Shown: positions 18,862-42,568 of the stretch, in pieces
How the letters are laid out: every line of letters begins with the position of its first letter
Position numbering within the stretch: position 1 is the stretch's first letter
From: Methanomassiliicoccaceae archaeon DOK
GTDB lineage: Archaea; Thermoplasmatota; Thermoplasmata; Methanomassiliicoccales; Methanomethylophilaceae
Assembly (NCBI GenBank): GCA_009911715.1
Contig: CP047880.1
Location: 1,426,001 to 1,490,000, forward strand
Length of the DNA: 64,000 nt
Reading direction: 5' to 3'
Notes under the pieces: model-generated
Told to the model about the DNA's origin: nothing
The model's input: the letters and a program-made list of their open reading frames with translations, nothing else
The model's database searches: none
Made by a program: the position numbers and the translations under genes

Positions 18862-18939
18862 GGTCCCATAGCTTAGTTTGGCTTGAGCGTTCGGCTGATA
18901 ACCGGAAGGTCATGCGTTCAAATCGCATTGGGACCACCA
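18862..18939 (+). tRNA. tRNA-Ile (anticodon GAT), CCA encoded
   Basis: A complete cloverleaf can be drawn. The acceptor stem GGTCCCA (18862-18868) pairs with TGGGACC (18929-18935), with A as discriminator, followed by an encoded CCA. The D arm is GCTT...GAGC. The anticodon stem TTCGG/CCGGA closes the loop CTGATAA, with GAT at 18897-18899. The T arm ATGCG-TTCAAAT-CGCAT is perfect. There is no intron. Confidence 0.96.
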
Positions 18940-22072: not shown

Positions 22073-24340
22073 ATGGAGGCGAGGATAAAGAGAAGGTCGG
22101 GCTCCTGCGGGTTCGACCCTCCGGATTCTTTCCCGGGGGACGTGATACGTTACCACGGGGTCCCGCCCGAGCACCCATCCCACGCCGTGCCCCCCGAGGG
22201 GCCGCTGTTCCACGCGACCATGGACGGCGAGATCCTGCAGAGCTACCTGACCTGGAGGGCAGAGGTCTCGGAGCACGGCGAGGCGGCCCCGCACTAGCCC
22301 TTCGTATGGCTGAGGATCTGCGAGCTGATCAACGACCCGCTAACCGAGTGGGAGGACGCCCTCTCGGAGGTCCTGTGGATGAACGGCCGCTTCTCCGACT
22401 CGTACACGCTGTCCGTGCTCACGGCCAGCGCCGCCAAGGACATCTGCCTCCTGATGAGGCGCAGATGGCCCGAGCAGGTCCTGTGGACCGGAGGGTACCT
22501 CAGGGACGCGTCCCTGGCCGAGGCGCTGCTGAGCGACCCTGTGCCGAGGATCCCCTTCGGGGTCATCTCCAGGGCCTGCGGGATGGACTGCCTGAAGAAC
22601 GTGGAGGACCGCGACGCGTTCTCCGAGACCTTCTCCAAGTGCCTCGGGTACATCGTCGCCATGGAGAGGACGGAGGACCCCCACCTGTTCGGAGGGGAGT
22701 GCTTCACGGACAGGAAGGTCCTGCTCTTCGACGGGTTCGCCTACTACGGGGACCCGGAGTACGCCTCGGCGAAGGTGCTGAGGCGCGACGGGCCCGGGCG
22801 CTGGGGTGACATCCTCCGCGGCCTGGCCGCCACCGTGTACTCGGCGGTCCACTGGGACCACGACGACATCCCCTGGAGGGAGGCCCTGCTGCTGACCGAC
22901 GCCCAGGCCGAGAGGGTCAGGCTCGCCATGGAGGACGAGTCCTCCGGCGACGGGGAGAGCCTCGTCCGCAGGGACCCCGCCGAGTGGGGGCCCGCGGTCC
23001 AGGAGGACGGGGACTACCCGCTGAACCCGATCGTGTTCGAGGACATGAGGGCGAAGATGTCCCACCCCCGCAAGGACTCGCTGAGGGCTTCCATAAGGAT
23101 CCACAGGGGCCAGTCCGGGCGCAGGGACGTCCCGTACGTCCCGTCCGACCACTGGTGCGCCAGCTACGACGAGATGACCCACGAGCAGCTCGAGTACTAC
23201 CTCTCATGGAGGGCGGACGCGCTCAACGGGGTCTACAGGGACACCGACCGCGGGTACCTCTGGCTGTTCCTGTGCGAGGCCGTGGACTCCGAGAGCGACC
23301 CCAACCGCCGGCTCTCGGTGCTCAACGGCGTCCTCAGGGCCTACGGCGGGTCATCCGACTCCATCAAGGGGCTCATCACGAGGACCGCCCAGGACTACGC
23401 CATAGCCACGGGCCAGGACCCGCCGTGGGACGGCTCCGAGAGGGACCAGCTCCTCCTGCTCTGGGTGAAGCTGGACATCGTCCCCATCGGGCGCATCCCC
23501 GTGGAGATGGCCCTGCCCTACGCCGACCCCTCCGTGACGTCGTACATGAAGAACCCGTCGGACTACGACGCCGCGTTCAACATCGCCCTCAAGGCGCTGT
23601 CTTCCAACATCTACGACAGGACCGGCAAGAGCCTGGCCGAATGCATGACCGGGAGGACCAAGACGGTGTACAGGAAGCTGTTCCCCGGACTGTCATCCGA
23701 CTGGGGCAGCTGCAGCATGACGATCTGCGACATCAGGCCGACCAACGGCGGCGGGAGGATCCTCACCGCGGCCCTCAAGGCTGCCATCAGGGCGGTCAAC
23801 GTGCCGCAGGGCCTGAGGGCCCCGAGGCGCCCGACCGGCCTGATCAGGGAGAGGTGCCTCCTCATAATGGAGTCCGAGCTCATGGCGTGGACCGAGAGGC
23901 AGGAGCGCGCCAGGAGGGTCGAGAGGATCAGGAGGGAGGCCGCCTCCATAGTGCTGGACAGGGCGCTGGTAACCGACGCCGAGACGGACCTGGCGGCGGT
24001 GAGGGACATGATGGGCACGGAGGACGAGGAGCCCCCCGAGCCCGAGCACGCGTCCGAGGTGCCCCCGGCACCCGCGGAGGCCACAGAGACCACACCCTGG
24101 GACGACCTGGGGAACAGCCTCGACGAGGGCCAGAGGGGATACCTGGCGGCATCCCTGGACGGCCGCGGCGAGGAGTTCGCGAGGGACGCGGGAACGACCG
24201 CCGTCCGCTTCGAGGACGGCATAAACGCGGTCGCCATGGACACCGTGGGCGACCAGATAATCGAGGACGGGAACGTGTTCGACGAATACGCCGACGACGT
24301 CCGCCGCATACTCGCGGCGCATCCCGTCGAGATCGGATGA
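22073..24340 (+). CDS. TerB_N/TerB_C protein interrupted by one in-frame TAG (possible pyrrolysine readthrough)
   Basis: One continuous frame except for a TAG at 22295-22297 (residue 75); with readthrough it encodes 755 residues. The sequence before the TAG (LQSYLTWRAEVSEHGEA) and after it (PFVWLRICELINDPL) together make a TerB_N-type block. A second such block later in the same protein (YYLSWRADALNGV, then GYLWLFLCEAV) is uninterrupted, and Arg stands where the TAG would align. The C-terminal 110 residues are TerB_C-like (GRGEEFARDAGTTAVRFEDG, INAVAMDTVGDQIIEDGN). It is followed by a DUF2791-type ATPase and a helicase in one operon. The start could also be 22025. Without readthrough the product is 74 residues. 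Either a pyrrolysine or other amber-decoded gene, or a recent nonsense mutation. Confidence 0.72.
22295..22297 (+). other. In-frame amber codon in the TerB gene
   Basis: TAG between a His codon (CAC) and a Pro codon (CCC) inside a conserved TerB_N block. The frame stays open for 681 codons after it. No other stop interrupts the gene. Confidence 0.9.
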
Positions 24341-24368
24341 GAGATACCGAGAGAGTAAGGAGAGATTG

Positions 24369-25658
24369 ATGACAGAGATACCCAGGAGGACGCTCGTGAC
24401 CATGATAAACGCGCTGTCCTCCGGTGTGGTCCCCCGCAGGGGACTGGAATACATAGCCGTCGGGAGGAGGAGGGAGACCGAGACCTTCGTGAACGACCTG
24501 GAGGACACCGCCGAGGGCGGCGGGGCGTTCAGGTTCATATCCGGGAAGTTCGGGAACGGCAAGAGCTTCATGATTCAGATGGTCCGCAACTACGCCATGG
24601 ACCGGGGGTTCGTCGTCATGGACGCGGACCTGGCGATAAACCGCAGGCTCACCGGCAGCAAGAAGGAGGGCCTCAACACCTACAGGGAGCTTGTCCGCAA
24701 CATGGCGGTCAAGTCCCGTCCCGACGGAGGGGCGCTGGAGCTCGTCCTCCAGAGGTGGATCGACGAGGTCCGCCAGAGGATGTCCGCCGAGAGGAACCTG
24801 CCGCTGAAGGACATCCCGGCGGGGGACGTGGCAGAGAGGCTCGCCAGGGAGACCTCCGCCATGAGCGGCCTGACATACTACCAGGACTTCGCGGCCGTGG
24901 TCTCCGCATACTGGCGCGACGTCTCCTCCGGCAGGGAGGACATGCCCTCGCTGCGCTGGCTCAAGGGGGAGTACGAGCTGAGGTCGGACGTCCGCAGGGA
25001 CCTCGGCATCACGAACATGGTGAACGACACCAACTGGTACGACTTCATCAAGATCTGGGCGGAGTTCGCCCATCGCATAGGATACAAGGGGCTGGTCGTC
25101 TTCATCGACGAGGGCGTGGTCCTGTACAAGATCCAGAACAGGGTGGCGCGCAGCAACAACTACGAGAGGCTGCTGTCCATGTTCAACGACATAATGCAGG
25201 GGAAGTCCTCGCACCTCTCGGTGTACGTGTGCGGGACCCCCGAGTTCATCGAGGACCCCGACAGGGGGCTCTACAGCTACGAGGCGCTGAGGTCCAGGCT
25301 GGTGGCCGGCAGGTTCGAGAACGGCTACGACAACTACCTCGGCCCGGTGATCAACCTCAGGCCGCTGACCAACGAGGAGGTCTTCGTCCTCCTCAGGACG
25401 CTGCGCGGGATGCACGAGCAGCGCTACGGCTACAGGTCGGAGATCGACGACGCCATGCTGGAGACGTACCTGAAGACGGTGACCTGCGCCATAGGCCAGG
25501 GCATGGTCACCCCGAGGGAGATCACCAGGGACTTCATCAGCCTGCTGGACACCATGCACCAGAACCCCGACGTGACCTTCTCCCAGCTGGTGGAGAACAG
25601 GACGGTGTCGCCGGACCGCGACCCGGACGACGACCTCATCGAGGACCTGGAGGTATGA
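24369..25658 (+). CDS. DUF2791-type (BrxD-like) P-loop ATPase
   Basis: 429 residues. A P-loop GKFGNGKS lies at residues 59-66, and a Walker B-like LVVFIDEG near residue 243. The start region (PRRTLVTMINALSSGVVPRRGLEYIAVGR) matches the DUF2791/BrxD group of ATPases, found with Lhr-like helicases in type 2 BREX loci. The ATG at 24369 is preceded by AAGGAGAG. It is 28 bp downstream of the TerB gene and overlaps the helicase start (ATGA), so the three genes form a single operon. Predicted role: ATP-dependent control of the helicase, or substrate recognition in defence. This is inference. Confidence 0.8.
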   Translation: MTEIPRRTLVTMINALSSGVVPRRGLEYIAVGRRRETETFVNDLEDTAEGGGAFRFISGKFGNGKSFMIQMVRNYAMDRGFVVMDADLAINRRLTGSKKEGLNTYRELVRNMAVKSRPDGGALELVLQRWIDEVRQRMSAERNLPLKDIPAGDVAERLARETSAMSGLTYYQDFAAVVSAYWRDVSSGREDMPSLRWLKGEYELRSDVRRDLGITNMVNDTNWYDFIKIWAEFAHRIGYKGLVVFIDEGVVLYKIQNRVARSNNYERLLSMFNDIMQGKSSHLSVYVCGTPEFIEDPDRGLYSYEALRSRLVAGRFENGYDNYLGPVINLRPLTNEEVFVLLRTLRGMHEQRYGYRSEIDDAMLETYLKTVTCAIGQGMVTPREITRDFISLLDTMHQNPDVTFSQLVENRTVSPDRDPDDDLIEDLEV

Positions 25659-27781
25659 CGGACCACACCGGGCGCATGCCCGGCTTCGTCCTCGACCACC
25701 TGCACAGGAGCGGGTGGACGGCCTTCCGCGATGTCCAGGAGAGGGCGTTCGACGTCCTCTTCGGCACCGACCATCATCTTCTGATAGCCTCGGGCACGTC
25801 CTCCGGGAAGACGGAGGCCGCGCTCATACCGGTGGTGTCCTCGCTCTTCTCTGACCCGGTTGACGGCATCGGCGCGATGTACGTCGGACCGACCAAGGCC
25901 CTCATCGACGACCAGTTCGCGCGCATGGAGAGGATGCTCAGGGAGTCCCGCATCCTGGTCAACGGATGGCACGGGGACGTCGACGCCAACAGGAAGGAGA
26001 GGCTGCTGGCGGAGCCCGAGGGCATCCTGCAGATCACCCCCGAATCCCTGGAGGGCATCCTGGACAACCACTCCGAGGACGTCCCGCGCATGTTCGGCTC
26101 GCTGAGGTTCGTCATCGTGGACGAGGTGCACTCGTTCATGGCCTCCGACAGGGGGCTGCAGCTCATGTGCGAGATCGGCAGGATCAGGAGGGCCTGCGGA
26201 TGCGCCCCCAGGATGATCGGGCTCTCCGCGACCCTCTCCGACACCGCTGCCGCCGCGGAGTGGCTCACGTCCGGCGCCGAGGGGGAGGCCGAGGTCGTCG
26301 CTTCCGACGACCGCAGGTCCTGCCGGGTCGGCATCAAGCACTTCCGCTTCCCCCCGGAGTACCCCGAGGGAGGCAGGAGGAGGGAGGTCTCCAGGTACTA
26401 CTCCGAGCTGTTCAGACTCACCGACCCCTACGCGTGCATAGTGTTCACCAACAGCAGGGCCGGGGCGGAGAGGACCGCCAGGTCCCTGGCGAGGGTGTCG
26501 GAGGCGAAGGGGTCCCGCAACCCGGTGAGGGTCCACCACGGCTCCCTGTCCGGCAGCATGAGGAGGACCGCCGAGGACGACCTCAGGGGCGGGTTCCCAG
26601 CCACGGTGGTCGCCACGGTCACCCTGGAGCTGGGCGTGGACATAGGCGGGCTGGACCGCGTGGTGCAGATCGGCGCCCCGTACTCCTGCTCCAGCCTGGT
26701 GCAGAGGATGGGCAGGTCGGGCCGCAGGAACGGCAGGCAGGAGATGGTCATGTTCTGCAACGACGACGATGGGGAGTGGCGCCCCGGGATCGAGGGGGTC
26801 TCGCTGGAGCTCGCCAGGGGGATCGCCGAGACCGAGCTGTACCTGGGCGAAGGCTGGACCGAGCCCGTGTCCCCGGACCCGCTGCCCTTCGGCCTGCTGT
26901 TCCACCAGACCCTGGCCGCGCTGAAGGGGGCCCGGAGGTACATGAGGTTCGGGGACCTCTGCGACGAGGTGCTGTCCCTGAGCCCGTTCTCATCGGTCAC
27001 CACGGACGACTACAGGCTCCTCCTGAAGCACATGATCAACAAGCGCACGCTCATCCAGACCGAGGACCTGACGCTCCTGATAGGCCCGAAGGCGGAGCCC
27101 GTGGCCTTCGGAAGGGACTTCTCCGCCGTGTTCGAGGTGAGGGACGAGACGGAGATCCGCGCCGGCGGGAGCACCATCGGCACCGTGCAGGGGAGCCCGG
27201 AGCCCGGGGCGACCGTCGCCCTGGCCGGCAGGGTCTGGAGGGTCGTCCGCCGCGGCGACGGATGGGCCGAGGCGGTGGAGACGGACGGCGAGGCGGACGC
27301 CAGGTGGAGGTCCGACCCGCCGGACATCCACACCAGGGTGATGTCTAAGGTCAGGGAGGTGCTGCTCTCGGACGACGACTACCCGTACCTGGACTCCTCG
27401 GCCAGGGAGGAGCTGGGGGCATCGAGGAGGGCCTTCCGCGCCTCCGGCGCCGGGGACGTGTTCGTGCCCACCGAGAGCGGGTTCGACATCTACCCCTGGC
27501 TTGGCACGGTGCAGTTCGACACGCTGAGGCGCATGCTGGGGCGCGTCGCGGGCGTGAGGGTGTCGTACGCGTACAGCCCGCTGGTCATCGGGGTGTCGAC
27601 CAGGCTGACGGTGACCGAGATCCGCAGGGCGCTGGAGTCGATCCGCCGGGACGACGACCCGGTGTCGCTGCTGGACGACAGGGAGTCCCTGAGGCTGGAG
27701 AAGTACGACGGGTTCGTTCCCGAGGCGCTCCTGGCGGACGCGTTCTGCGCCAGGAGGATCGACTGGGACTTCGAGCTGTGA
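25655..27781 (+). CDS. DEAD/DEAH-box helicase (Lhr/BrxHI-like)
   Basis: Superfamily 2 helicase of 708 residues. Motif I SGTSSGKT is at residues 46-53, motif II DEVH at 156-159, motif III SATLS, and motif VI QRMGRSGRR. A C-terminal region of about 300 residues follows the two RecA domains, as in Lhr-like and BrxHI helicases. Its ATG overlaps the TGA of the ATPase gene, so translation is coupled. Codon use is high-GC like the host, unlike the low-GC defence genes that follow. No nuclease motif is seen. Confidence 0.88.
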   Translation: MTDHTGRMPGFVLDHLHRSGWTAFRDVQERAFDVLFGTDHHLLIASGTSSGKTEAALIPVVSSLFSDPVDGIGAMYVGPTKALIDDQFARMERMLRESRILVNGWHGDVDANRKERLLAEPEGILQITPESLEGILDNHSEDVPRMFGSLRFVIVDEVHSFMASDRGLQLMCEIGRIRRACGCAPRMIGLSATLSDTAAAAEWLTSGAEGEAEVVASDDRRSCRVGIKHFRFPPEYPEGGRRREVSRYYSELFRLTDPYACIVFTNSRAGAERTARSLARVSEAKGSRNPVRVHHGSLSGSMRRTAEDDLRGGFPATVVATVTLELGVDIGGLDRVVQIGAPYSCSSLVQRMGRSGRRNGRQEMVMFCNDDDGEWRPGIEGVSLELARGIAETELYLGEGWTEPVSPDPLPFGLLFHQTLAALKGARRYMRFGDLCDEVLSLSPFSSVTTDDYRLLLKHMINKRTLIQTEDLTLLIGPKAEPVAFGRDFSAVFEVRDETEIRAGGSTIGTVQGSPEPGATVALAGRVWRVVRRGDGWAEAVETDGEADARWRSDPPDIHTRVMSKVREVLLSDDDYPYLDSSAREELGASRRAFRASGAGDVFVPTESGFDIYPWLGTVQFDTLRRMLGRVAGVRVSYAYSPLVIGVSTRLTVTEIRRALESIRRDDDPVSLLDDRESLRLEKYDGFVPEALLADAFCARRIDWDFEL

Positions 27782-27845: not shown

Positions 27846-27884
27846 CTATATAACAATGTTTGATTACATTTAATTGTTATATAG
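27846..27884. promoter_or_regulatory. 12-bp perfect inverted repeat at the fic promoter
   Basis: CTATATAACAAT at 27846-27857 is repeated exactly in inverted form at 27873-27884, with a 15-bp spacer. The right arm contains the likely TATA box (TTATATAG), about 21-25 bp upstream of the fic ATG at 27905. A bound regulator would therefore block transcription. It looks like an operator. Confidence 0.6.
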
Positions 27885-27904
27885 TCATTAATTATACGAT
27901 AACC

Positions 27905-28711
27905 ATGTCATCAAAGGAACCGGTTACACATGGAACGGACGGATACGTTCAGGACTTCACCCTGGACGAGGGCATCATGTCCCTGGTCGCCGAAATCAGC
28001 GAGCTCGCGGATGCACTCGGATCCGGACCAGAAGCGGACCAGGAGACGATCGAGGCGAGCATGATCGCATCAGCCCAGGCATCTACGGCCATAGAGGACA
28101 ACCCCATGACGGTGGAGCAGGTGGCCCTCGCGGTCGCCGGTAGGGAGACAGGATGCCACCCGCGTCATGTCAGGGAAGTTCTGAACTGCCACGAGTGCTA
28201 CCGCATCAGACCATCCCTGGACCCGCTGTCGGAGGAGGATCTCCTCCGGGCCCATGGCGTGATGACAAGGGGTTTGCAGGAGGATTCGGGACGCTACCGC
28301 GACTGCGGTGTCGGCATATGGTCGGGAGACAGGCTCATCTACAAGGCTCCGCCGGCGCACATGGTACCCCAGATGATGTCGGACCTGATGGAGTGGCTGC
28401 GTACCTCTGAGCATCACCCCTTAGTGAAGGCGTGCGTGTTCCACTACGAGTTCGAGACAATTCATCCCTTCTCCGACGGGAACGGCCGCACGGGAAGGCT
28501 GTGGCAGTCCGTCATAATGTTGGATTGGAAGGGCTGCATGAAATGGGTCCCGTATGAGACGGAGGTGCTGGCCAGACGCGGTCGCTACTACAAGGCGATC
28601 AGATCGTCCAGGCAGATCAGGGACACATCACCGTTCATCAGGTTCATGTTGGAGACAGTAAGGGACGCCGCCGAATCGGCTCAACAGACAATATCTTCTG
28701 ATGAGTTCTGA
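27905..28711 (+). CDS. Fic-domain protein (AMP-transferase type) with N-terminal inhibitory motif
   Basis: 268 residues. The Fic active-site motif HPFSDGNGRTGR is complete at residues 187-198, so nucleotidyl transfer (usually AMP from ATP to a Ser, Thr or Tyr of a target) is expected. The N-terminal helix holds STAIED at 60-65, a near match to the inhibitory (S/T)xxxE(G/N) motif, so the enzyme is probably self-inhibited. The usual C-terminal winged helix of many Fic proteins is absent. There is no Shine-Dalgarno, and a TATA element close to the start suggests a leaderless mRNA under control of the adjacent palindrome. Confidence 0.88.
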   Translation: MSSKEPVTHGTDGYVQDFTLDEGIMSLVAEISELADALGSGPEADQETIEASMIASAQASTAIEDNPMTVEQVALAVAGRETGCHPRHVREVLNCHECYRIRPSLDPLSEEDLLRAHGVMTRGLQEDSGRYRDCGVGIWSGDRLIYKAPPAHMVPQMMSDLMEWLRTSEHHPLVKACVFHYEFETIHPFSDGNGRTGRLWQSVIMLDWKGCMKWVPYETEVLARRGRYYKAIRSSRQIRDTSPFIRFMLETVRDAAESAQQTISSDEF

Positions 28712-28855
28712 AAAACTCAGCAAAACAGAAGTCCTGTAAACGTATCCGCAGGACAGATGGAGAAGGAGAAACGAGGCCTATGATGTGGGCAACCCTCTGC
28801 AAACATCCTGTTGGAACTCCGGTAAATTGAAGATTTAAACTCGCATCCTCAAAGT

Positions 28856-29257
28856 GTGATTGAGGTATCTGCTGCGATCATCACAAATGGAACTGACGTT
28901 CTTTGTTTTCAAAAAGGACTATCTAAGCGTAGCTACCTCTCCTACAAATTCGAATTCCCTGGCGGTAAACTAGAAGAGGGAGAAACTCCAAAACAGACTC
29001 TAATTCGTGAATTGAAAGAAGAACTTGACCTAGATATATCAGATTGCAGATTCAAGCAGTACAGGGACATAATTCATAAATATGATGACTTCACAGTACT
29101 GATCCATTACTTCATCATATACGATTACGATCCGAAATTCACACTTAATGAACACATATCCGCAGTTTGGAAACCCCTTCACTTACTTTCCGAGTTAGAT
29201 TGGGCCGGTGCTGATCTAAAAGCAGCACATATTTTGGAGCGTGAAGGTATTGAGTGA
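28856..29257 (+). CDS. Nudix hydrolase, MutT-like (d)NTP pyrophosphohydrolase
   Basis: 133 residues with the Nudix box GGKLEEGETPKQTLIRELKEEL at residues 38-59, matching GX5EX7REUXEEXGU apart from its last Gly. It is predicted to hydrolyse nucleoside triphosphates such as oxidised dNTPs. The likely start is GTG at 28856; a TTTAAAC element about 20 bp before it and the lack of a ribosome binding site suggest a leaderless GTG mRNA. Its 3' end overlaps the PLD-helicase gene by 17 bp. Base composition is far lower in GC than the flanks, so the pair looks acquired. Confidence 0.88.
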   Translation: MIEVSAAIITNGTDVLCFQKGLSKRSYLSYKFEFPGGKLEEGETPKQTLIRELKEELDLDISDCRFKQYRDIIHKYDDFTVLIHYFIIYDYDPKFTLNEHISAVWKPLHLLSELDWAGADLKAAHILEREGIE

Positions 29258-32087
29258 CGAGTCTCTAAGATTGGGCCTGGAGCATGGTTTCATAGATAGT
29301 TCAGTCTCTGCCAGTGAAGAATTCAAACCACAGCTCATAACAAACAATCCCTTGAGAAAAGAGAAAGTAATCACTACTCTGAAACAGGAAATGGAAAAAT
29401 GTGACGAATTCATGTTTTCCGTCGCATTCGTTAATTCAGGAGGAGTTAACGCATTAGCCCAGGAGTTTAGAGAGCTCGATCGGAAGGGGATCAAAGGACG
29501 CATAATAGCCTCACAGTATCAGAATTTTACCGAGCCCAGAGCCCTTAAAGATCTCAGAAAAAACAAAAACATCGATCTTCGCGTAATCACTGAAAAAGTC
29601 TCCAAAATGCACACCAAATGCTACATCTTTAGACACGGGGACTCGTATGATGTAATTATTGGAAGTAGCAACCTCACCAACAGTGCTCTCTGCGATAACA
29701 TGGAATGGAATCTTAAATTCAATTCCAAAAATTCTGGAGAGATCATAGCCAACATACTTTCAGAGTTTGAAAGAAACTACGAGATTGCTACACCGGTGGA
29801 TGATCTTTGGATTGAAGAGTACTCTCTAATCTATAACGATTTGAAACATTTCAGACAGGCTCTGAAAACAGGCATACCGGCGATTCCAAAAGCTGATCAA
29901 AAAAGAATCCAACCCAATCGCATGCAGGCGGAAGCTCTGAAAGGTTTAGAAGAGATCAGAGCTAAAGGGGAGGACAGAGCACTAGTCATCTCAGCAACTG
30001 GATCCGGAAAGACTTATCTTTCTGCCTTCGACGCAAAAATCGCTTCCAAAAAATTCCTCTACATCGTTCATAGAAATCCTATCCTTAACAAAAGCATGCA
30101 AAGCTTTGAAGCGGTGATGGAAGGAACAAAAACAATAGCTAAGTATGATCCAGTTCTCAATGATCTGACCGCAGATTGTACCTTCGTCACGATTCAGACA
30201 ATAACTAAAGAAGATGTATTGGCCAAAATCCCCAAAGACTGGTTTGATTACATTCTTATTGATGAAGTACACCACGCTGGTGCTCCGACTTATCAGAGAG
30301 TTATCAATTACTTCAAACCAAAGTTCCTTTTGGGAATGACAGCAACTCCGGATAGAACAGACGATTATGATATCTACAAACTGTTCAACTACAACATTGC
30401 ATACGACATTAGACTGAAAGAAGCAATGGAATACAAATTGATCTGCCCTTTCCATTACTTCGGAATATCAGATCTTACCTTTGACCAAGTCTCTGAGGAT
30501 GATAAAACCAAATTTCTCAAGACAGAAATGGATCAGAGGATTGACCACATCTTGGAGAATGCTGAATATTTTGGATACTGTGGAGATAGACTCAAAGGGC
30601 TTGTATTCTGCCGGGATCTCAAAGAAGCAGAAGATTATTCCAGAGAATTCAACAGACACGGATACAAAACCGAGTGGGTCTCCGGAATGATGGACAAAAA
30701 TCTGGTGGAGACTTGTATTGAGAGATTGGAAGCTGATGAAGGAACGAATCTTCTAGACTACATTTTCACAGCAGACTTATTTAACGAAGGAGTGGACATT
30801 CCTGCCATCAACCAAGTGATTATGCTTCGTCCGACTGAATCGCCAATTATCTTCATCCAACAGCTCGGAAGAGGCCTTAGACACCATCCCGGAAAGGAAT
30901 ATGTTGTCATACTCGACTTCATAGGCAATTATGAGAAGAACTACAACATTCCTCTAGCTCTTTCCGATGACAGATCATACAACAAATCGGAAGCAAGAAG
31001 ATTCATTGCTGCAGGAGATTCGATTATTCCAGGTAATTCAACAATCAGTTTTGATGAAATCTCTAGAAATAAAATCTACGAATCCATCGATAATTCTGAT
31101 TTTACCGAAGCTAAGATCATTATGGATGGTTACAAAAGCTTGAAGATGCGTCTTGGAAGAATTCCAGAATTGACTGATTTCAAAAAGTATGGATCGATTG
31201 ATGCCTTGAATCTTCTTTCGAAATACAAATCATACCATAATTTCCTGAAAACAAAGGATAATCAGTATTCTATCTCCTTTGATTCGGACAAGGAAGAATA
31301 TTTGGATTTTATTACAAAAATAGCTGCTGCTGGAAAAAGAAGACTGGAAGTCGAAGCTCTTGAACTTCTGATGAATGGCACGATAGATCTTGAATCAGAT
31401 TTAAGAAGCATTGGAGTTGAAACTTCCAATAAAAACCTAATTCAAGTATTAGATGGTAGCTTCTACACAAGTAACGTTGTGCTTGTTGAGAGCTGTGAAG
31501 GAAAATATCACGCATCTAACAAGTTCAGAATGATGATGAATGATGCAGCGTTTTCTGAACATGTTATACAGATTATAGAACTAGGACGGTCTAACTGGAC
31601 CGAACTATATTCTAATACTTATGAAGGAACAGATCTTGTTCTGAACATGAGGTATACGTATGAGGATGTCTGCAGATTTCTGAACTGGCCGAAGAACCTG
31701 AATGCACAGAATATGGGCGGATATTTCTACCATAAAGAAACAAAGACATTTCCTGTGTTCATTAATTATGTTAAAGGAGAAGATGTAGTTGAGTCTCAAA
31801 AGTACGAAGATCGTTTCGAGAACAGAAATACATTGATTGCTCTGTCTAAGTCTAATGATAACCGTAATTCGGCTAGAATGAAAGTAGTAGAGAATTCAAT
31901 GGCGAATGAGGTTGGTATTCATCTTTTCGTCAGAAAGAACAAAAACGACAAAGGATCTAAAGAATTCTACTACCTTGGAAAAATGATGTTTGTACAATTT
32001 ATTGATAATAATAAACCTGTTCAAATCGAATACAAACTAAAAAATGATGTAAGACAGGACTTATATGACTATTTCAATTCAGAGTAA
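29241..32087 (+). CDS. PLD-nuclease/SF2 helicase fusion with DUF3427-like C-terminus
   Basis: 948 residues. An N-terminal phospholipase D-type nuclease domain has HTKCYIF (H124, K126) and GSSNLTNSAL (141-150). A helicase follows, with motif I ATGSGKT at 252-258, DEVHHA at 341-346, GMTATPDR, and motif VI QQLGRGLRHHPG. The last 400 residues fit the DUF3427 type seen in such helicases. Only one HxK motif is present, so the nuclease may dimerise. The start is taken at GTG 29241, inside the Nudix gene; TTG at 29250 is possible. Low-GC codons throughout. Probable DNA-targeting defence effector with the Nudix protein as partner. Confidence 0.87.
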   Translation: MKVLSDESLRLGLEHGFIDSSVSASEEFKPQLITNNPLRKEKVITTLKQEMEKCDEFMFSVAFVNSGGVNALAQEFRELDRKGIKGRIIASQYQNFTEPRALKDLRKNKNIDLRVITEKVSKMHTKCYIFRHGDSYDVIIGSSNLTNSALCDNMEWNLKFNSKNSGEIIANILSEFERNYEIATPVDDLWIEEYSLIYNDLKHFRQALKTGIPAIPKADQKRIQPNRMQAEALKGLEEIRAKGEDRALVISATGSGKTYLSAFDAKIASKKFLYIVHRNPILNKSMQSFEAVMEGTKTIAKYDPVLNDLTADCTFVTIQTITKEDVLAKIPKDWFDYILIDEVHHAGAPTYQRVINYFKPKFLLGMTATPDRTDDYDIYKLFNYNIAYDIRLKEAMEYKLICPFHYFGISDLTFDQVSEDDKTKFLKTEMDQRIDHILENAEYFGYCGDRLKGLVFCRDLKEAEDYSREFNRHGYKTEWVSGMMDKNLVETCIERLEADEGTNLLDYIFTADLFNEGVDIPAINQVIMLRPTESPIIFIQQLGRGLRHHPGKEYVVILDFIGNYEKNYNIPLALSDDRSYNKSEARRFIAAGDSIIPGNSTISFDEISRNKIYESIDNSDFTEAKIIMDGYKSLKMRLGRIPELTDFKKYGSIDALNLLSKYKSYHNFLKTKDNQYSISFDSDKEEYLDFITKIAAAGKRRLEVEALELLMNGTIDLESDLRSIGVETSNKNLIQVLDGSFYTSNVVLVESCEGKYHASNKFRMMMNDAAFSEHVIQIIELGRSNWTELYSNTYEGTDLVLNMRYTYEDVCRFLNWPKNLNAQNMGGYFYHKETKTFPVFINYVKGEDVVESQKYEDRFENRNTLIALSKSNDNRNSARMKVVENSMANEVGIHLFVRKNKNDKGSKEFYYLGKMMFVQFIDNNKPVQIEYKLKNDVRQDLYDYFNSE

Positions 32088-40510: not shown

Positions 40511-40610
40511 CTGACAAATTCGACACAATCAATCAAATTTTAATTAATAATTAAACTACTGTTTATTTCATATACAGATGTTATTATACAATAAAATCCT
40601 TACATCATCT

Positions 40611-41984
40611 ATGTTCAGACGGATCGATCTCGAGAATTTCAGATCCTTCACAAAGGCCACTCTGGATCTCGGGGGAAAGGGGGGCACTGCGAAACCATAT
40701 GCCCTGATATACGGAGAGAACGGATCCGGTAAGACAAACCTAATCGAATCCGTCTCGTTCCTCACACAGAGCATGAGGACACTTGTGATAGGCGACGATA
40801 TAGCGAGACAGAGGGCAATTCTGAAAAATCTACGTGACGTCGAGGACGGGTCCTCCATACTGTCGCAATCGATGGATCTGATGGACCGGGCTTTCGAGGA
40901 GATAGAGATGGCCGCATCGTCGATAAGCATCTGTGACTACGCGCGTACCGTGAAGACGATAGGATCGGACACGGACATGCGTCTGGTGTACTCGTTCATC
41001 GTCGATGGGAAGGAAGCCGAATACGAGCTGAGGTTCTCCGATGACGGAAAGGTCGTCCACGAGAGACTGAACTACTTCATCAACAGCCGCTCTGGGAGAT
41101 ACTTCGAGATCGACGGACGCAACGGCCCTGCAACTATCCTTTTCGGAAACGGCTTGTTCACCAACAGGAGATTCAAAGCCCAGATGAAAGAGCTCGTAGA
41201 GAAGTTCTGGGGCAACCACACCTTCATGTCCATTCTGTACGCAGAATACCGCAGGTCCAACCGCGAGTACATCGAAGAGAACGTCCGCCAGGGAATGGGG
41301 ATGATCATCTCGTATCTGGACGACATCGTCGTGAGCACCCCGCTCGATGGGCGCGATCCAAGGGTGTGGCCGTTCGAACCGATTTCCGGAACAATCCCGT
41401 CGGAATCCGAACATCTGTTGGACGCATACGAGGAGGCCATAGACACGTTCTTCACCCGCATGTACACGGATGTGGGAAAGACGTACTACAAAAAGGCGGA
41501 GAAAGACGGGAACATAGCATACATGCTGATGTTCAGCAAACGCATATCGGGAACGTTCCGCGAGGTCCCGGCGACGATGGAATCCACCGGGACGAGGAAG
41601 CTCCTGTCAATGATGCCCGCTCTGCTCTCCTGCGTGGATGGATCCGTGGTGTTCGTGGACGAACTGGACAGCGGGATACATGACAAACTCATTCACGATC
41701 TGATGAAGGAAGTCCTTCCATCCGTGAAGGGACAGATGGTCGTCACTACGCACAACACATCACTCATCAAGGATACCGATCCATCCAAAGTCTACGTGAT
41801 CGACCTAGATGCCGTGGGTAACAAGGACATCAGATCAGTCGACGCGGTTACACGCACACAGAAGAGCCACAACAACACCGCCCGGTACCTAGAAGGAATG
41901 TTCGGAGGCGTACCGTACATAGGCATGATGGATCTGAAAGACATCTCTGACACTCTCGGAGAGAAACTCGGGAGAGATCCATGA
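40611..41984 (+). CDS. AAA15-type (ABC-like) ATPase, AriA/RloA-like
   Basis: 457 residues. MFRRIDLENFRSFTKATLDL at the start and GENGSGKTNLIES (P-loop) are typical of the SMC/OLD-like AAA15 group. STGTRKLLSMMP is the ABC signature, VVFVDELDSG is Walker B, and THNTSLI holds the switch His. Such ATPases sense phage infection and control a partner nuclease, as in PARIS, RloA or OLD systems. The ATG at 40611 gives the standard N-terminus; an in-frame ATG at 40578 lies in AT-rich promoter-like sequence. The stop overlaps the start of the Toprim gene (ATGA). Confidence 0.83.
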   Translation: MFRRIDLENFRSFTKATLDLGGKGGTAKPYALIYGENGSGKTNLIESVSFLTQSMRTLVIGDDIARQRAILKNLRDVEDGSSILSQSMDLMDRAFEEIEMAASSISICDYARTVKTIGSDTDMRLVYSFIVDGKEAEYELRFSDDGKVVHERLNYFINSRSGRYFEIDGRNGPATILFGNGLFTNRRFKAQMKELVEKFWGNHTFMSILYAEYRRSNREYIEENVRQGMGMIISYLDDIVVSTPLDGRDPRVWPFEPISGTIPSESEHLLDAYEEAIDTFFTRMYTDVGKTYYKKAEKDGNIAYMLMFSKRISGTFREVPATMESTGTRKLLSMMPALLSCVDGSVVFVDELDSGIHDKLIHDLMKEVLPSVKGQMVVTTHNTSLIKDTDPSKVYVIDLDAVGNKDIRSVDAVTRTQKSHNNTARYLEGMFGGVPYIGMMDLKDISDTLGEKLGRDP

Positions 41985-42568
41985 CGAACACACTCGTCGT
42001 GGTTCACGGTAAATGCGAGATGGCCCTCTGTCAGAGGATGATGAGGCTCCTGAGGATGTCCATGGAGATCGTCTCACGTGAAAGAGGAAAGGAGGCCATA
42101 ACGATATCGCAACTTCCGGAGATCCTCTCCACAGGATAGTTCTCATCGGAAACGAGCCTGCACAAGGCGTTTCCATCCATCGAGTACAACATGAAGAGAG
42201 CCACAAGAATGGAGCGTCTCGTGATCTTCACGATAATGGACGAGGACATGGACTTCAGGAACCGCAAAAGCTACTTGAGTGGCGACCTCTTTAGGAACAG
42301 TCCGTTCTACGACCGCATAGTCCCGATCATCAACACACCCAACATGGACCGTGTGATGGAGGAGATAGGACTGGGCTCCATCCAGAGCAAAAAGGTGAGA
42401 TCGTACGCCAGGATCATGGACGAGATCGTCGACCCGATGAAGTTCCTGCTCGATCTGGACGGGAACAGCAACACCAACATGGACCTGTTCGTGAGACACT
42501 GCATGTCCTGTAGCCCTCCGTATCAGAGCCAGGTAGACCCCATCCGCAAGCTTAATCGAAGAAAATAA
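41981..42568 (+). CDS. Toprim-like partner nuclease interrupted by one in-frame TAG
   Basis: With readthrough of the TAG at 42137-42139 (residue 53) the frame gives 195 residues. The part before it starts LVVVHGKCEMALC, with a Toprim-style Gly and Glu. The part after it contains LVIFTIMDEDMDF, a Toprim-style DxD, then YDRIVPIINTPNMDRVMEE, so both catalytic halves are split by the TAG. The arrangement (small Toprim protein behind an AAA15 ATPase, ATGA overlap) resembles RloA/RloB and PARIS AriA/AriB pairs, though the family differs. The last seven codons and TAA lie in or at the edge of the right flanking repeat. Either a pyrrolysine or amber-decoded gene, or an inactivated one. Confidence 0.68.
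42137..42139 (+). other. In-frame amber codon in the Toprim gene
   Basis: TAG between GGA (Gly) and TTC (Phe), with the frame open for 143 codons afterwards. It is the only interruption of the gene, and the second such case in the window. Confidence 0.9.

Follow-up and report, generated by a model that had tools for sequence, protein, structure and literature searches.

An in-frame UAG common to three species in the archaeal Shango gene sngA, probably read as a tolerated pyrrolysine

A gene for a TerB_N/TerB_C protein in the genome of Methanomassiliicoccaceae archaeon DOK (Methanomethylophilaceae) contains a single in-frame TAG, raising the question of whether this codon breaks the gene, divides it into two products or is read as pyrrolysine (Pyl), and, in the last case, whether Pyl matters at that position. 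We analyzed the gene within its window, by which we mean the whole 64,000-nucleotide stretch of contig CP047880.1 (positions 1,426,001 to 1,490,000; assembly GCA_009911715.1), starting from a sequence-only reading that had proposed a pyrrolysine protein in a defence system. Our data favor, at a probability of roughly 0.78, the view that this is the sngA gene of a complete Shango system, that its UAG is read as a tolerated but not needed Pyl, and that full-length SngA is made.

Translation confirmed that the 755-codon frame holds one internal TAG (codon 75), ends in TGA and is otherwise free of lesions. Coding signal 3' of the TAG was strong and host-like, at +550 bits over 680 codons under a dicodon model fitted to 800 kb of this genome. 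The Pfam domains of the protein lie at residues 351–402 (TerB_N) and 617–735 (TerB_C); the TAG-bearing N-terminal TerB_N-like block drew no Pfam call, though it aligns continuously on both sides of the TAG with the corresponding block of ~35 family members. This N-terminal block repeats the second TerB_N block in diverged form (local score 73, reached by 0 of 500 shuffles, whose maximum was 64), and in this repeat alignment the TAG stands opposite Arg. The pairing with Arg had been proposed from the letters alone, and the alignment bears it out.

Table 1 Coordinates of features in the window and of other in-frame TAG genes in the same genome (G000:C1 positions refer to the genome, all others to the window).
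Feature	Location	Strand	Basis and remarks
sngA-like gene (TerB_N/TerB_C), UAG putatively read as Pyl	22073..24340	+	755 codons; PADLOC SngA 4.8e-30; Pfam TerB_N 2e-10, TerB_C 2.9e-8; same ATG start in four orthologues
In-frame TAG, codon 75, candidate pyrrolysine site	22295..22297	+	Same codon TAG in G023 and G015, TAC in G014
27 codons from TAG to next in-frame start, diagnostic for read-through	22298..22378	+	dN/dS against G023, both with TAG; binomial test
Possible restart site	22366..22381	+	Sequence: GGAGGT, 7-nt spacer, ATG103
sngB, BrxD-like ATPase	24366..25658	+	PADLOC SngB 7.2e-154; Pfam BrxC_BrxD 1.4e-137
sngC, DEAD/DEAH helicase (BrxHI-like)	25655..27781	+	PADLOC SngC 7.7e-180; Pfam DEAD 4.2e-25
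Second TAG gene in window, TAG at codon 53 of 195 (42137-42139)	41981-42568	+	Directly behind AbiLi-like AAA ATPase gene (40578-41984)
AMP phosphorylase-like gene with in-frame TAG (L093)	G000:C1:208650-210161		Sense codon in relatives at 95, 94 and 90% identity
bPH_2 membrane protein gene, private in-frame TAG (L123)	G000:C1:1520148-1520675		G015 at 88% identity without TAG
HTH transcription regulator gene, TAG in HTH region (L066:347-946)	G000:C1:1380347-1380946		G023 at 72% without TAG

The gene is the first of a contiguous three-gene operon (22073-27781), and since PADLOC matches to SngA, SngB and SngC lie side by side, the operon is a complete Shango system. Shango was described as an anti-phage system of three genes, encoding TerB, ATPase and helicase proteins (PMC10250203); the window gene is an intact sngA, with presumed anti-viral activity. 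Both Pfam and PADLOC relate SngB to BrxD-type ATPases and SngC to BrxHI-type helicases. In type 2 BREX these two proteins form a tight pair in which the ATPase may load the helicase onto target DNA (PMC12839542), and by analogy Shango may divide the labor between ATPase and helicase in a similar way. The operon is part of a defence island: it is followed by genes for a Fic (SoFic-like) protein and a type IV restriction-like helicase/nuclease (27860-32087), and a tRNA-Ile gene lies near the left of the region (18862-18939).

The genome carries a complete set of pyl genes: pylS, pylB, pylC and pylD exceeded NCBIfam equivalog cut-offs, and pylT, which was read by eye because tRNA-Pyl escapes ARAGORN, lies immediately before pylS with a CUA anticodon and a 7-bp acceptor stem. 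Genes for MtbB, two MtmB and MttB, all with in-frame TAG, adjoin pylT/pylS. In a census of 800 kb (42% of the genome), TAG terminated 18 of 675 called genes (2.7%), several of the 18 being read-through genes; this rarity agrees with reports of rare TAG stops in the order (PMC3941956), including 1.6% in Ca. Methanomethylophilus alvus (PMC4153887). Decoding of UAG as a different amino acid by another suppressor tRNA is extremely unlikely, for although the tRNA scan covered part of the genome (800 kb), pylT was the sole CUA tRNA seen there and the pyl set is complete. The sequence after the UAG gave no Rfam match to PYLIS or to another recoding element, and its fold z-score was -0.9; PYLIS is not needed for Pyl decoding (PMC8211752). 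More broadly, pylS was detected in 28 of 31 genomes. As a separate observation at the pyl locus, pylB apparently ends at a TAG (L060, near 12660) followed by 24 non-coding-looking codons before the next stop, so PylB may carry a short Pyl-containing tail.

The sngA lineage of the window gene occurs in four species of the genus (the host and those represented by genomes G023, G015 and G014), all of which have pylS. Codon 75 is TAG in three of the four orthologues (the window gene, G023 at 82% identity and G015 at 46%) and Tyr (TAC) in G014 (67%), in the settings CAC/CAT-TAG-CCC/CCG (host and G023), GAC-TAG-GGC (G015) and TAC-TAC-GGG (G014). In G023 and G015, sngA is accompanied by intact sngB and sngC, in the gene order of the window operon; the G014 contig stops inside sngB. 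Since G015 is basal in the window-gene clade with full support, either TAG would be ancestral, with a change to TAC in G014, or it would have been gained twice. The named relatives bearing sngA, found by an alignment query, were three Candidatus Methanomethylophilaceae MAGs; a single-protein search with SngA gave no match in genome contigs or viral contigs, and phage records gave no match.

These comparisons bear directly on whether the gene is broken. Under the standard code the TAG is an internal stop, as would be seen in a decaying gene with a nonsense mutation or with an error of sequencing, but its occurrence at the same codon in two other species rules out a sequencing error as well as a fresh mutation. 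The identity of the TAG in three independently sequenced species already refutes decay; moreover, there is no second lesion, both sides of the TAG are constrained and the partner genes are intact. We consider a nonsense mutation or pseudogene effectively excluded on these sequence comparisons, its likelihood being close to negligible. The sequence-only reading had held that a lack of pyl genes, or sense-codon orthologues combined with decay of this copy, would count against Pyl: the pyl genes are present and the sense codon was found (Tyr in G014), but neither dN/dS nor the orthologue comparison revealed decay or relaxed constraint 3' of the TAG.

Termination could also coexist with function if the UAG ended a 74-residue peptide and translation restarted at ATG103, giving a split gene with a 653-residue SngA. 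ATG103 is found in all three TAG orthologues and replaced by CTC in the Tyr orthologue, and a good Shine-Dalgarno precedes it in the window copy (GGAGGT 7 nt upstream), but the latter is lost in G023. Restart further requires 27 untranslated codons, yet between the window gene and G023, both with TAG, dN/dS in this gap was 0.07 (10 synonymous vs 3 non-synonymous differences, p=1.6e-4), alongside 0.14 for codons 1–74 and ~0.2 for the remainder. The low value indicates that the 27-codon stretch is translated; skipping it by termination and restart would leave no such constraint, making this the strongest evidence for UAG as sense. Codons 1–74 and 76–102 also align as a single block with uninterrupted family members, and the organism possesses tRNA-Pyl. 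A split gene is thus highly improbable, though part of the product may come from restart at ATG103 where some UAGs have stopped translation. Very probably, the UAG in sngA is read through and the gene is not broken.

If the codon is read as Pyl, PylRS would charge tRNA-Pyl (CUA), which would decode UAG codon 75, and the cell would make a 755-residue, full-length SngA. Pyl75 would then begin the second helix of the helical hairpin in the N-terminal TerB_N-like block; the column appears to accept many residues, and third-base changes could swap the site between Tyr (TAC) and Pyl (TAG) in this lineage. Such a Pyl would most likely be tolerated, not needed. SngA would join the SngB ATPase and the SngC helicase in the manner of other Shango systems, and a by-product of this arrangement would be that complete SngA, hence Shango, needs a supply of Pyl.

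Our data do not support a functional role of Pyl in SngA. Arg was the commonest entry of the TAG column in 39 aligned family members (12), ahead of Glu, Ala and TAG (4 each), with N, Y, S, P, K, D, W and L also present, and G014 has Tyr in an intact sngA; the residue is thus variable. No relative of the protein with a solved structure was found, and since the AlphaFold2 model was poor (mean pLDDT 50, from four sequences), only its local helix boundaries (52–68 and 75–87) were used, with caution; these place the TAG at the first residue of helix 75–87. Neutral retention of TAG in three orthologues, with stops forbidden, had P of about 0.08–0.18, and a value of about 0.08 means that retention alone is no proof of selection.

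Four other non-methyltransferase TAG genes were found in 800 kb of this genome: those for an AMP phosphorylase-like protein, a bPH_2 membrane protein and an HTH regulator, and a small gene beside an AbiLi-like ATPase. Since the nearest relatives of each have sense codons, these four TAGs look like recent tolerated gains. For the small gene, which lies in the window, the best orthologues (37–41%) lack the TAG, and one G021 copy has a TAG somewhere in the gene. A tolerated Pyl in SngA fits the variable column, the Tyr orthologue, the lack of a PYLIS-like element and these four private TAGs.

The alternative is that Pyl has been selected, the TerB_N hairpin using the bulk or the reactive imine of the residue, or the UAG tying defence to Pyl supply and methylamine growth. 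Of the five non-methyltransferase TAGs (800 kb), only that of sngA is common to orthologues. In addition, the identical column is TAG in a TerB_N/TerB_C gene of G024 that is only 22% identical to the window gene and far from its clade in the gene tree; this gene's closest relative, in G013, carries TAC there and a G026 relative AAG. The tree requires at least three changes of the TAG label, and TAG arose at this column at least twice. Three more family TAGs occur at other columns, in one gene of G013 and two of G026. A further family TAG near the C-terminus in G002, a 61% complete genome in which pylS was not found, was left out of the count, as were apparent TAGs in L081, L169, L179 and L184, which fall beyond the family-like region or ahead of the probable start. 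The SngA family has seven TAG genes in 31.9k codons, whereas SngB and SngC together have none in 33.3k codons (5–6 independent events, p ~0.01–0.03). This excess may, however, reflect the faster evolution of SngA, which evolves faster than SngB and could for that reason alone tolerate more TAGs. Likewise, although a TAG at this column in another TerB subfamily may point beyond simple tolerance, such a coincidence of two among five independent events has a chance of ~1–7%, depending on the columns able to take TAG (138 of 755 codons are one step from TAG). Together with the variable, mostly Arg column and the Tyr of G014, these considerations make selection for Pyl unlikely.

Seven related genomes also have TerB-family genes next to the pyl locus. 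In G024 and G013 (L159 and L171), a TAG-bearing TerB_N/TerB_C gene is the first gene behind mtmB-pylS-pylB-pylC-pylD, and in G001, G017, G025, G026 and G029 (L163, L170, L181, L185 and L188) a TerB_C gene and an SngB-like ATPase gene lie beside mtmC-mtmB-pylS-pylB; SngC was not found beside this two-gene module in those five genomes. This arrangement hints at a tie, regulatory or functional, between TerB genes and Pyl in these relatives, or at a shared insertion site. In the genome of the window, by contrast, 178 kb separate Shango from the pyl genes. A bolder proposal, which we consider doubtful, is that Pyl was recruited at least twice at one TerB_N site (the helix start after a D-x-G-Y/F turn) in Methanomethylophilaceae and that TerB-type defence has become linked with the Pyl/methylamine regulon, the defence protein being complete only when Pyl is made.

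SngA is a well-supported candidate Pyl protein outside methylamine metabolism, for which the natural Tyr allele serves as a control. Because such genes are split by standard annotation, the defence systems of Pyl-decoding archaea will be missed or called pseudogenes. Were Pyl supply to limit SngA, the immunity of these gut methanogens would hang on methylamine metabolism, and transfer of the operon to a host without Pyl would give a non-working system.

Several known systems offer comparisons. The Shango systems of Pseudomonas aeruginosa PA14 and E. coli resemble the window operon in their three genes, with order and families alike and PADLOC matches to all (PMC10250203), whereas the window system is archaeal, has an in-frame UAG in sngA and is a predicted anti-viral system. 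MtmB, MtbB and MttB share with sngA an in-frame TAG, the genome and probably the tRNA, but in these enzymes Pyl is an invariable active-site residue (PMC8211752), in contrast to the variable SngA column. In Methanosarcina, Pyl in a non-methyltransferase, the tRNA-His guanylyltransferase, was attributed to neutral evolution (Heinemann 2009, as cited in PMC4153887). That enzyme is like SngA in not being a methyltransferase and is a different protein. Its Pyl was reportedly studied experimentally by Heinemann in 2009, and a genome-wide Pyl code in archaea is said to have been described by Kivenson et al. in Science in 2025.

The closest comparison is with Ca. M. alvus, for which Borrel and others predicted 16 non-methyltransferase Pyl proteins, including cas1 and Fic, in 2014 (PMC4153887). 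Candidate Pyl proteins of this kind, including predicted ones in defence genes, are thus already known, and while the original observation holds and its Pyl reading is supported (by the pyl set, the TAG-bearing methylamine methyltransferases, the same-TAG orthologues and the lack of decay), the claim of a first of its kind is not. Both cases come from the same archaeal order and combine in-frame TAGs outside methyltransferases with sense-codon homologues in relatives and low TAG-stop use; SngA is not named among the Ca. M. alvus proteins in the available part of that source. What distinguishes sngA, and is new, is a UAG of a defence gene common to the orthologues of three species, a naturally occurring Tyr allele, a TAG gained independently at this column by another TerB lineage, and TerB-family genes at the pyl locus.
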